NCBI GenBank assembly: GCA_002742845.1
Contig: DLUH01000005.1
Span: 848,586 to 912,585, forward strand
Source: Sulfurovum sp. UBA12169
GTDB lineage: Bacteria; Campylobacterota; Campylobacteria; Campylobacterales; Sulfurovaceae
DNA length: 64,000 bases
Reading direction: 5' to 3'
The translations under genes were made by a program, and so were the position numbers. Positions 5,963 to 10,890 of the stretch are shown here, in pieces. The notes under the pieces are model-generated. The model was not told the origin of the DNA. It saw only the letters and a program-made list of their open reading frames with translations, and did no database searches. Positions within the stretch are counted from its first letter, which is position 1. Each line of letters begins with the position of its first letter.

Positions 5963-6262
5963 ATGAAAACAAAAAAATGCGTGACGCTTCAAGAAGCGAG
6001 AGAAGAAATCGATAAGGTTGACAGTCAGATCGTGACATTGATCGCTCAAAGAAATGACTATATCAAGCAAATCGCACATTTTAAAAACAGTATTGATGAG
6101 ATAAAAGCCGAAGATCGGATACAAGATGTTATTTCAAGAGTCAGGGAGCAGGCAATTTCATTGGGTCTTTCTCCTAACCTTATCAATGATCTGTATGTCA
6201 GAATGATCGATGCGATGGTTGAGAGTGAAATTGCGGAGTTTAAAAACGCAAAAAGTTATTAG
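5963..6262 (+). CDS. Chorismate mutase family protein (AroQ/PchB fold)
   Basis: The 99-residue all-helical protein matches the AroQ-class chorismate mutase fold, in particular the PchB-like subset. It has a first helix with the REEIDKVDSQIVTLIAQR pattern, a middle segment AHFKNSIDEIKAEDRIQDV carrying the Lys and Arg expected at the active site, and a third helix ending MVESEIAEF. It would convert chorismate to prephenate, or act as an isochorismate pyruvate-lyase. The sequence alone does not decide between these, and no siderophore or aromatic-pathway gene is adjacent. It stands alone between dnaK and the convergent CBS gene. Confidence 0.8.
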   Translation: MKTKKCVTLQEAREEIDKVDSQIVTLIAQRNDYIKQIAHFKNSIDEIKAEDRIQDVISRVREQAISLGLSPNLINDLYVRMIDAMVESEIAEFKNAKSY

Positions 6263-6456: not shown

Positions 6457-6861
6457 CTATTCTTTTGTGTCTTCAATGTCATTCATGAGAGCCCCGATTA
6501 CATCTGTCATCGTTAAGATGCCCAGCAGTTCATTGTTATCGACGACAAGCAGTCGTTTGATACTGTTTGTTACCATCATTTTGGCTGCATATTTTACATT
6601 GAGCTTCGCAGAAACCGATATGGCGGGTATGGTCGCGATATCATATACGTTTAAAAGATCGATATCACCGTCTTCTGCAACAATGCTTTGTAAAATATTT
6701 TTAAAAGTCACCAGGCCATAAGCGCCGTCTTCATGGTTTTTCTCCACGATGACAGAGCGCACTTTGTGCGTTTTCATTAGCTGAAGTGCTTGACGTACCG
6801 AAGCGGTGGGGGTAACGAGGACCAATTTCTCTTTTGGGGTCATAATGTTTTGAACTAGCAT
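6457..6861 (-). CDS. CBS-domain pair protein of the DUF1538 operon
   Basis: The 134-residue protein consists of two CBS repeats and little else. The first spans about residues 1-60 (opening MLVQNIMTPKEKLVLV) and the second about 68-128 (IPAISVSAKLNVKYAAKMM... LLGILTMTDVIGALM). Stand-alone CBS pairs usually bind adenosyl nucleotides and act as energy or ligand sensors. It is the last gene of a tight minus-strand unit: 9 bases after the PII-like gene, which itself overlaps the DUF1538 gene. A regulatory role toward that membrane protein is inferred. It ends with an acidic DIEDTKE tail. The small plus-strand frame overlapping its 3' end is not convincing as a gene. Confidence 0.85.
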   Translation of the reverse strand: MLVQNIMTPKEKLVLVTPTASVRQALQLMKTHKVRSVIVEKNHEDGAYGLVTFKNILQSIVAEDGDIDLLNVYDIATIPAISVSAKLNVKYAAKMMVTNSIKRLLVVDNNELLGILTMTDVIGALMNDIEDTKE

Positions 6862-6870
6862 ATTTTTCTC

Positions 6871-7221
6871 CTATAGCATATTTTTAATATCATCTTCAAA
6901 TTTTTCCAATTCTTTGATGTCCAGTCCGGCAACATGGCTCAAGGGCACAGTAAAAGTGAGGCCGCTGTTTTCGGGATTGTCCAAATCAAATGTTTTTCGT
7001 AAAACCCTCATGACTTTCAGGGAAAGTTTTCGGGGCAGTATAAAAAGCAATATGGATATGTTTTCTTCAAGTGTTAAGCCAAAAAATACCTTTTTTTCCT
7101 CAAGACCGATATTCTTTCCGGCGATAATGGTGACGCTGCCTGCTCCTGCTTCTTTGGCTACCTTGATAGCCTCTTCTTCATCTTTGTCTTGAATGATAGC
7201 GATAAGTGCCGTAAACTTCAT
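6871..7221 (-). CDS. PII-like signalling protein of the DUF1538 operon
   Basis: The 116-residue protein has the ferredoxin-like beta-alpha-beta layout of the PII superfamily: an opening strand [11 protein letters not shown], helix [13 protein letters not shown], and strand [10 protein letters not shown] at the place where PII proteins have their G-rich turn. A short T-loop-like stretch follows ([10 protein letters not shown]), then a second half ending in a C-terminal extension. It lacks the classic GlnB uridylylated Tyr motif, so it is a divergent PII-like protein rather than GlnB/GlnK. Such proteins often sit beside the transporter they control. Its ATG overlaps the stop of the DUF1538 gene by 4 bases, indicating translational coupling. 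Confidence 0.75.
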
Positions 7222-8726
7222 GATGCAACTCCTTTTGTTTTGGATTGTTGATAGTGGGCATAGATACCATATCCCATGACGGTCAGCATAGGAAAAAGAA
7301 CTGCAAATGCAATGAGACCAAATCCGTCAATGAGCGGATTGCGTCCCTCGACATTTTCAGCCAGTCCAAGCCCCAGTGCAGCTACAAGCGGCACTGTAAC
7401 TGTTGACGTTGTTACTCCGCCACTGTCGTAAGCGATAGGAATAATATAGCGAGGTGCAAAATAGGTTAGAATGATTACCACGATATATCCCATAATAATA
7501 TAATAATGAATCGGATCACCTTGAACAATGCGAAAAGCGCCCAGAGTAACTCCCATGGATGCACCCAACGCAACAATAAGGCGCAACGGCTTTTGTTTCA
7601 TGTTGCCTTGGCTCACCTCTTCTGCCTTGAGAGCAATAGCCAAAAGAGCCGGTTCCGCCATGGTTGTAGAGAAACTGACCAAAAACGCAAAAAGATAAAC
7701 CAAGCCGATATAATCCATGGAAGTCAATTGGAATGCAATGGCTGACCCAATAGGGAACAGCGCCATTTCGAGCCCTACAATAAAAGCATAGAGCCCAAAA
7801 ATTACCAAGATAATTCCTGTTGCGATTTTTCGTAAATAAGGAATGGCTTTTTTGATGATAAGGTATTGAAAGAAAAAAATGACCGCCAAAATGGGTGCAA
7901 CATCTTTTGTAACCCCTCCAATTCCCATTAGAATTTCACGTAATGAAAAGGCATAGGCATTTACACTCGCTTGTGTCTGATTTGCTACCGCCTCAACTCC
8001 CGCCGAGGATACTTCTGCGAAACTGTATACGATAATACCATAAATTTGGACAAAAATCATCGGAGTGAGTGAGGCGAAGGCAATGAGTCCAAAACCATCT
8101 ATGGCCGGGTTGCGGCCTTTGATACTTGAAGCCAGCCCGATACCCAGGGCGGCCACCAGCGGCACCGTCACGGTCGATGTCGTTATCCCTCCGCTGTCAT
8201 AAGCTAAACCAATGATCTCTGCAGGAGCAAAAAAAGTGATCGTTATCGCAAAAATATACCCGGCTATAATATAGTAATGAATCGGATGTCCTAATAAAAT
8301 ACGCAATACCCCAAGCATAATGGCGAATCCTACCGAAAGTGCCACAGTCATACGAAGCCAAAAGGCATCAATAAGCCCTCCGCTAATGAGAGTCGCCTTA
8401 TTGGCTATCGCCATTAAAGCCGGTTCCGCAACAGTCGTAGAAAATCCTACCGTGAAAGCAAAAAGAAGTAGCCAAAAGAGTGATCCTTTTTTTGCAAAAT
8501 CGACTGCAAGACTTTCTCCGATAGGAAAGATGCCAAGTTCCAATCCTCTGACAAAAAGAGCTAATCCTACGGCAACTATAAATAAACCTATTATGATGGA
8601 GTCAAGGTTCTTGGGAATAACCTGGATGATCCCTGCTTGGAAAAACGTCACAACTGCAATGATGGGCAAAAGATCTTTAAATGAATTTCTGATATCGGAA
8701 TAAAATATTTTAATGCTTTCTCTCAT
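7218..8726 (-). CDS. DUF1538 membrane protein with two homologous halves
   Basis: The 502-residue integral membrane protein has about 12 or more hydrophobic segments and is an internal duplication. Both halves carry FSTT-x-AEPAL-x-AIA, then PIHYYII-x-GYI, then [21 protein letters not shown], then [15 protein letters not shown]. The repeat spacing is near 245 residues. The motifs match what I recall of DUF1538, which has no established function to my knowledge; an ion or small-solute transporter is inferred from the pseudo-symmetric topology and the PII-like and CBS partners downstream. I chose ATG at 8726; a TTG eight codons earlier (8750) is possible. No strong SD precedes either start, and a TATAAT ends 7 bases before the ATG. 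Confidence 0.8.
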
Positions 8727-8949
8727 GTCAAATATTATATCTATTGGCAAATTCTTTTGTGTTTAAAAGGTTTTATTCTTATACAATCTTGTAGTAAAAT
8801 ACATAGTAAATCATTTTAATAAGAAATCCAAAGGCGAGATGTGCTGTTGGTATTTGAATGATTTGGAATTTGATACAAAAGCCCTTGTTGCTATGGCGGG
8901 AAAAAAAGAGTTTGAAGCCTTATTTTTCTTCTTGCTCCCGCAAATAAAA

Positions 8950-10890
8950 TTAGTTCCCCATTCTGGTTTGTACGCAGCTGATGATGCCGCTAAATTCTTT
9001 TTCATGTCCAAAGCAACTGCTGCTATTGCAAATCATAAAATCATCATTTAAACTATTTTTAAACAGCGTAAAAGGGTAGGGAACGGTGTCCATTTTTTCA
9101 ATATGCGGTTTGAGCGTTTCTTCTTTGGCTTTAATGACAAGGTCGTCCTTGAGGTAGCGTATCACCGTATGGCTTAGTTTCGGCGTTGAGATAGGTTGAC
9201 GCATGACATCATAAGAGTTAAGTTCCAAAGTTTTAAAAACAAACTTTTTGTAAACGGTGTCAACCAGTGAAGAGAGACTAAGAAGTACGCAAAGCATTGT
9301 TGAAACTGATGAAGGATAGGAACTGTCATAAAGATCTGCATCGGTTTCAAATTCGCCGCGGGAAAATTTCCATTTTCCGTGTACATAATATTTTTCTATC
9401 GCACTGTTTGCCAGCTTGGCGGCAGTGATGAGGTATCTTTCGTCCAGAGTGCTTTTGTAAGCTTCTATCAGCGCTTCGCTCAAAAAGGCATAGTCTTCCA
9501 AAAAGGCATGTATTTTTGGTTTTTTATCTATAAGTGCAGAATGAAAGAGCTGGGAATGGATATACATAGTTTCAAGCAGTCTGTCTAGGGAGCCAGTAGC
9601 TGCTTCAAGATAGTGTTCGTTGATACGCGCGGCTTTAAAAAGTGCTTTGATCATCATGGCATTCCAAGAAACAATGATTTTTTTGTCTATGAAAGGATAG
9701 GTGCGCTTTTCTCTGCATTTTTTTAAAGCCCCAATCGCCTCATTATAGAAAGGGGTATCTAAATGTTGAGGATCTTCGATCCGGATGATATTTTTGCCTT
9801 CAAAATTGCCTGCTTTTGTGATATGCAAGGCAGCCGCAAGCGCGGCATGCTCTTTGCTTGGGATGTTTGCTTTTTTAAAAGATTTGAGTGCTTCTTCGTA
9901 GGTATAAACAAAATAGTTTCCCTCTTTCCCTTCTGTATCTGCATCGCTTGCGGAATAAAAAAGTCCATTTTGGTTCATTTTTTTAAGCATAAAATCTAAT
10001 GTTTCAAAAGCGATTGTTTTGTAAACAGTATTTTGAGTGATACAGTAGGCCTTCAGGTATACTTCGGCAAGCAAAGCATTGTCATAAGTCATTTTTTCAA
10101 AGTGGGGAACCAGCCATTGATTGTCTGTAGAGTAGCGGCAAAAACCACCTTCCACCCTATCGTACAAGCCTCCTTTTGCCATTGATAGAAGCGATACCGT
10201 TCCCATTGAGAGTGCTTCTTTGTCTTTAGTGAGACTATAAAGATCAAAAAGCAGGTCAAGGATTGAAGCTTGCGGAAATTTGGGCGCCTGGTTGAATCCT
10301 CCGTTTTGATAGTCAAAAAGTTGTTTAGCTTGGCTTAAAAAACGATTTATGATACTTTCATCAAGTGTTGTGGCTTGAATTTTGTCTATTTTTGGATTAA
10401 GAAAAGTCAAAATCTCTTCCGCTTTTTGGGTAAGGAGTTCTTTTTCGCTATGGTATTTTTGCACAATCGCCTCCAAAAGCGACTCGAAACTCATCATGCC
10501 GTAGCGTGGTTCGGGAGGGATGTAGGTTGCCGCATAAAAAGGCTTTAGCTCTTCGGTAAGAAAAATGGATGTAGGCCAGCCTCCCGGACGGGAATTTATA
10601 AGCTGATAAACTCCCTGAAAGTGTTTGTCAATATCAGGACGTTCTTCCCTGTCTACTTTGATGGAAATAAAATATTCATTAAGAATTTTTGCGGTTTGTT
10701 TATTTTCAAATGATTCGCGCTCCATCACATGACACCAGTGACACGAACTGTAGCCGATTGAAAGAAAAATAGGCTTATGTTCTTTTTTGGCTTTTTTAAA
10801 TGCTTCTTCGCCCCATGGATACCAATTCACCGGGTTTTGAGCATGTTGCTGGAGGTAAGGAGAGTGTTCATTTTTAAGATGATTTGCCAT
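8950..10890 (-). CDS. YyaL/SPATA20-family thioredoxin-domain protein (DUF255)
   Basis: This 646-residue cytosolic protein begins with the hallmark of the family, [21 protein letters not shown] thioredoxin-like domain follows with the redox motif CHWCHVM near residue 50, then a long helical region resembling an (alpha/alpha)6-barrel of the N-acylglucosamine epimerase/cellulase type, including the [11 protein letters not shown] and [14 protein letters not shown] motifs. The biochemical function is not established; a thiol-redox role is inferred from the CXXC. It is transcribed divergently from dsbD, across 112 bases holding several TATAAT boxes, so shared control of the two thiol-related genes is possible. 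The length is normal for the family. Confidence 0.88.

Follow-up and report, generated by a model that had tools for sequence, protein, structure and literature searches.

The locus considered here raises the question of what a duplicated membrane protein of the DUF1538 family transports, and whether the two putative sensor proteins encoded beside it act as its switch. Within the window (the whole 64,000-nucleotide stretch of DNA that was analysed) of Sulfurovum sp. UBA12169, whose genome amounts to 1.86 Mb in five contigs, a three-gene unit lies on the minus strand; it comprises the gene of a 502-aa protein with two DUF1538 copies (7218-8726, read from the ATG at 8726), that of a 116-aa protein with a predicted SbtB-like PII fold (6871-7221), and that of a 134-aa CBS-pair protein (6457-6861). 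The first two genes overlap by 4 bases (7218-7221), and a gap of 9 bases (6862-6870) separates the PII-like gene from the CBS gene; the compact arrangement described in the first-pass annotation is thus reproduced to the base, with all its coordinates. For the DUF1538 gene, an in-frame TTG situated 24 bases above the ATG at 8726 provides an alternative start, and because a TATAAT precedes this ATG at 7 bases (in the 8727-8750 region), either a leaderless start or initiation at the TTG at 8750 is possible; a promoter and terminator scan returned counts no more than one standard deviation from those of shuffled sequences. The nearest upstream gene on the same strand, encoding a thioredoxin-like DUF255 protein (8950-10890), is 223 bases away, and the downstream gene, encoding chorismate mutase (5963-6262), lies on the opposite strand, so that the three genes look like a separate unit.

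The DUF1538 membrane protein

The membrane protein, whose closest named relative is that of a Sulfurovum MAG at 85% identity, matches DUF1538 (Pfam PF07556) with 439 bits over two stretches. DUF1538 is the UmpA/UmpB family of Na+(Li+,K+)/H+ antiporter subunits (NCBIfam NF041627/NF041628), and the two halves of the protein can be further differentiated by these models: the N half scores 298 bits with UmpA and 206 with UmpB, and the C half 255 bits with UmpB and 212 with UmpA, which makes the protein a UmpA-UmpB fusion in the order A then B. The whole protein passes the UmpA equivalog cut-off (496.7 versus 490) through the summing of its halves and falls short of that for UmpB (446.6 versus 500), while either half alone lies far under both cut-offs of these models, which were built for separate subunits; for this reason, the substrate assignment is borrowed from a relative, and Na+(Li+,K+)/H+ antiport by the window's protein is inferred from its sequence. 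The first-pass annotation had called the transport system uncharacterised, a description that gives way to the published UmpAB family. The host genome also encodes two Na_H_Exchanger proteins (an NhaA match was not found there), and UmpAB is therefore not its sole candidate antiporter.

The sole characterised DUF1538 member found is a cation/proton antiporter. According to the available part of PMC5484666, UmpA and UmpB of Halomonas zhaodongensis form a heterodimer when co-expressed and catalyse pH-dependent antiport in E. coli; since umpA and umpB alone were enough for this activity, PII and CBS partners are dispensable for transport. The Halomonas system shares with the present one the two DUF1538 halves, A then B, and the conserved acidic residues, and it differs in that here a single fused chain is accompanied by PII-like and CBS partners; the terms PII, P-II and CBS gave zero matches in the same part of that text.

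Four acidic residues are identical in all rows of a 118-row DUF1538 alignment, which includes clostridial, alphaproteobacterial and divergent campylobacterotal sequences, with two genes entered twice. Glu101 (8424-8426, minus strand), a candidate cation/proton site, falls at a predicted helix break, Asp177 (8196-8198) stands directly before another, and Glu358 (7653-7655) and Asp434 (7425-7427), on the same strand, are their respective counterparts in the second half; Arg142 is likewise invariant (118/118). A 759-aa protein with three repeats (P0241), judged by eye to be a chimeric assembly, was excluded from the alignment (A2). In the AlphaFold model of a fused relative (L107; pLDDT 84.7), Glu101, which bears the same number there, sits between helices 83-99 and 102-114, and helix 169-181 is followed by a break just past Asp177; the second half repeats this pattern. 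The pairs Glu101/Asp177 and Glu358/Asp434 at broken helices are therefore likely ion sites, the conservation being directly observed and the role conjectural. A comparison of DUF1538 with PDB sequences gave no match at E <= 1 (single sequence) or E <= 10 (profile), and in a fold search with the L107 model the match list was filled by the PII domain.

The PII-like and CBS-pair proteins

PII proteins gate ammonium and bicarbonate transporters, and the canonical PII T-loop follows the pattern YRGA[AE]Y. The PII-like protein of the unit scores 17.3 bits with Pfam P-II (PF00543), under the cut-off of 25, in keeping with its earlier description as divergent. Searches of PDB sequences yielded nothing usable (best E 0.63 with the single sequence and 0.26 with a profile), so the placement of the protein comes from fold comparison only: SbtB is the top match for both predicted models, with canonical PII close behind, and in one Foldseek search, in which no match reached 0.001, the best (2.4e-3) was again SbtB. 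By its predicted fold, the protein belongs to the PII superfamily and is SbtB/CPII-like; it may, as a trimer, bind adenine nucleotides, the models themselves being of the monomer. The canonical T-loop and B-loop patterns, taken from general knowledge, occur in none of 105 PII rows, the window's included, and nucleotide binding consequently does not follow from the sequence. The window's protein contains no cysteine and so lacks a redox loop like that of SbtB.

The predicted docking element is the T-loop region, residues 40-54 (7060-7104, minus strand), where K43, F46, F47, G48 and E52 are identical in 41/41 chosen rows. Of 84 rows from stand-alone PII proteins, 83 keep its core, FFG or FFA (80 by pattern and three, reading FFGV, by eye, with the window counted twice), and none of 21 rows from proteins in which PII is fused to UmpAB does so; the model confidence of this loop is low (mean pLDDT 53 over residues 41-50). 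As a separate observation, the PII-like protein is the one P-II match in the host genome, where no canonical GlnB/GlnK was found and two ammonium transporters are nevertheless encoded (G000:C2:35475-38196).

The CBS-pair protein matches Pfam PF00571 with 78 bits over two stretches, corresponding to two CBS domains, and the closest solved sequence is that of CBS-CP12 (5nmu, E 5.8e-18); this match spans the CBS part only, the 134-aa protein having no CP12 part in the Pfam scan. In its second CBS domain, a GILTMTD motif (6502-6522, minus strand), presumably of the ribose-binding type, is conserved among 75 aligned CBS proteins at Gly114 (97%) and Asp120 (95%), and the protein is predicted from its sequence to be an adenine-nucleotide sensor.

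Linkage and fusion across genomes

DUF1538 is present in 29 of 200 Campylobacterota genomes, and in every one of the 29 a PII-like gene is adjacent or fused to it: 19 genomes carry PII and CBS, eight carry a fused PII, one (G116) carries PII with GAF, and one (G060) carries two PII-like genes. A wider survey took the best 80 of 121 related loci, retrieved with the window's protein as the query, which favours close relatives. PII is beside or fused to DUF1538 in 76 of these 80, with PII and CBS in 60, a fused PII in 13 and PII only in three, among which two contigs (L044 and L074) end inside the CBS gene and the third locus (L098) has GAF. Of the four loci without PII, one (L097) ends after 2 bases, L045 offers 562 bases in which PII is absent, and L076 and L089 extend for more than 3.9 kb downstream, likewise lacking it. 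All five Aquificota loci among the 80 have PII and CBS. Moreover, among nine plasmid records with DUF1538, a P-II gene was next to it in 6/6 loci examined, the hosts being the alphaproteobacterial Methylocystis and Chelativorans and four Clostridia. Because relatives from outside the Campylobacterota derive only from the window-protein search and the plasmid collection, the spread over phyla stands on few loci.

The neighbourhood check proposed with the first-pass annotation thus returned a near-constant link to PII. That annotation had also named two findings that would speak against its reading, namely rare linkage of the genes and a published function of the membrane protein that needs no partners; the second exists in the E. 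coli work on UmpAB, whereas the linkage is anything but rare. Its wider proposal of a regulated transport unit gains support from this linkage, from the other phyla and from gene fusion.

The local arrangement varies. In 59 of 83 loci with an assigned PII start, the UmpAB and PII genes again overlap by 4 bases, and in two genomes (L026/L122 and L027/L123) the order is PII, CBS and then UmpAB, with linkage kept. Two genomes (G177 and G196) carry a second, divergent DUF1538 gene that is again followed by a PII-like gene. The P-II partner in the clostridial plasmid loci is 222-224 aa long in three cases, with a matching 227-aa frame in the fourth, and the two halves of L114 share 30.5% identity, which indicates a tandem double PII. 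The second PII-like gene of G060 (L119) is weak (profile E 4.6e-4) and lacks a Pfam match. Over 83 loci, the pairwise distances among UmpAB proteins correlate with those among stand-alone PII proteins (r 0.78); shared ancestry alone would yield such a value, and the correlation was not used as evidence.

Several further observations accompany these loci. The clostridial double PII (L114:4484-5152 and relatives) echoes the two halves of UmpAB; divergent DUF1538 proteins with a PII-like gene of their own occur at L120:4004-5864, L121:4213-6073 and L119:3619-6019; and the L122:4024-8725 unit (G134) lies near a Na_H_Exchanger and TrkA_N gene, with one unassigned gene between. In the same locus, L122:6284-6679 was taken by eye for a universal stress protein, which Pfam did not confirm.

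The CBS gene is the variable member of the unit, being present in 19 of the 29 DUF1538-positive Campylobacterota genomes. GAF proteins occupy its position in two loci (L124:3280-6098, from G116, and L098:5889-6386), and in G116 they flank the UmpAB-PII pair on both sides. No close CBS homologue was found in 8/8 fused genomes, one of them (G122) having a 605-aa protein of 35% identity, and none was seen beside the six examined plasmid loci in their incomplete annotation. The dual sensor envisaged at first pass accordingly holds for the CBS-bearing majority and not for the loci with GAF, the fused genomes or these plasmids.

In 21 loci, all of the Sulfurimonas/Arcobacter type, the PII domain is fused at the C-terminus of the antiporter. 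These loci form one clade with an SH-aLRT of 100 in a quick tree, so a single fusion event suffices, and the disappearance of both CBS and the T-loop core counts as one event and not as a repeated correlation. Fused forms are common: with the fused PII part as the query, in a search confined to proteins whose length was 0.55-1.75 times that of the fusion, 387 matches were obtained, and all 120 matches listed carry both Pfam domains. Tethering may have replaced docking in this clade, which would fit the missing T-loop core and CBS gene.

Proposed control of the antiporter and its alternatives

The near-constant presence of PII beside or fused to UmpAB makes it likely that the antiporter is switched by the energy state of the cell, and the overlapping gene, the T-loop kept in free and lost in tethered forms, and SbtB as the nearest fold mean that the PII-like protein is best read as the gate. 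The fused UmpA-UmpB, the SbtB-like PII and the CBS pair would together constitute a Na+(K+)/H+ antiporter under the control of adenine nucleotides, a reading that is slightly favoured overall. The broader proposal, that UmpAB represents a class of PII-gated antiporters with PII as a standing subunit in at least four phyla, a third-gene socket for CBS or GAF, and one clade with a covalent PII, is evenly balanced between acceptance and doubt.

In this mechanism, the UmpA and UmpB halves, heterodimeric in Halomonas, would form the antiporter, and the PII-like protein would dock on its cytoplasmic face via the conserved T-loop, whose shape would change upon binding of AMP or ADP versus ATP so that the antiporter is closed or released. 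By analogy with SbtA-SbtB, a fall in energy charge would shut UmpAB and thereby preserve the proton gradient; the CBS protein would supply a second adenylate reading, with GAF proteins in that place at two loci, and in the fused clade the PII domain would act within the antiporter chain, held by a tether instead of docking. The purpose of such a lock may be to prevent proton leak and cation loss at low energy. The ligand of PII and the sign of control are both proposed by analogy, and direct contact of the PII-like and CBS proteins with UmpAB is likewise inferred.

Known systems resemble the unit in part. The CPII of Thiomonas intermedia is associated with carboxysomes, and we know of no link between it and UmpAB. 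It is also PII-like, was solved with ADP/AMP and appears among the fold matches (5d4n, 5ds7). AmtB-GlnK (2ns1, also among the fold matches) similarly places a PII fold beside a membrane protein, but here the canonical PII patterns are absent and the unit has no ammonium transporter. SbtA-SbtB, as described in the available parts of PMC10991534 and PMC10710835, combines a transporter with the PII-like protein of nearest predicted fold, in which the T-loop is expected to dock; the present unit differs in its transporter family (DUF1538/UmpAB, not SbtA), one fused clade, a third sensor gene and the lack of cysteine. The binding of SbtB to SbtA is strong in the presence of AMP or ADP and is hindered by ATP, cAMP or c-di-AMP (available part of PMC10991534; see also PMC10710835). 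PII control seems restricted to transporters able to work as trimers, according to the accessible part of a review (PMC10710835); UmpAB, by contrast, is reported as a heterodimer, and the mismatch between a PII trimer and a two-fold antiporter counts against PII gating.

Other readings of the locus have to be weighed against PII gating. The partners could serve the stability or assembly of UmpAB as chaperones or scaffolds, which is unlikely: gene overlap and fusion demonstrate association and not gating, but known examples of the PII and CBS folds serve as ligand sensors, and in two loci the third gene is swapped for GAF, another type of sensor. Sulfurovum, Sulfurimonas, Hydrogenimonas and Aquificota are autotrophs, whereas the clostridial hosts and Chelativorans are not known to be. 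It could accordingly be supposed that the unit is an inorganic-carbon system of chemoautotrophs, with DUF1538 as a bicarbonate transporter in the manner of SbtA/SbtB, since many carriers bear these names, and the fold is nearest SbtB with CPII matched too; however, the sole characterised member found exchanges cations for protons, DUF1538 and PII also stand together in Clostridia and on a Chelativorans plasmid, and DUF1538 has no sequence link to any solved protein, which makes this supposition quite improbable.

A role of the PII-like protein as a nitrogen regulator of the usual kind, merely adjoining the antiporter, would accord with its weak PF00543 match, with the database names and with its standing as the single P-II match of a genome with two ammonium transporters. 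Its score under the Pfam cut-off, the canonical loop patterns absent from all 105 rows, and the near-constant linkage and fusion to UmpAB speak otherwise, and a strong canonical PII is encoded besides in 31 of the 32 genomes surveyed, the window's own being the exception, so that a nitrogen role appears very improbable. Hardly credible is a c-di-AMP target with a PstA-like PII and CBS, comparable to Gram-positive K+ control, for which there are precedents in the PII-like receptor PstA (known here from a literature abstract) and the c-di-AMP-binding CBS domains of OpuA (available part of PMC10710835), as well as an SbtB complex with c-di-AMP among the fold matches: diadenylate cyclase was found in 0/29 UmpAB genomes of Campylobacterota by a search that was positive in 11 of 14 control genomes, and c-di-AMP is therefore unlikely as the ligand there.

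The DUF1538/UmpAB literature searched, outside which subscription papers mostly lay, contained no link of UmpAB to PII or CBS, the lone 'PII' match (PMC7221264) being a stretch of peptide motif, and, judged by titles and the opening lines of abstracts, the literature on PII with transporters or antiporters contained nothing on UmpAB. Both the transporter family and the kind of regulator are known, and their combination was found nowhere described in the literature searched. If PII gating of UmpAB holds true, PII logic would be extended to Na+/K+/H+ antiport, and pH and salt balance would be tied to the energy of the cell. The fusion offers a single chain in which transport and switch can be studied jointly, and the exchange of GAF and CBS allows the nature of the second signal to be tested by comparing loci. 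Hundreds of proteins (546 and 387 matches), some of them now named 'transcriptional regulator' or 'nitrogen regulatory protein PII' in the databases, would thereby acquire a name linked to their function.
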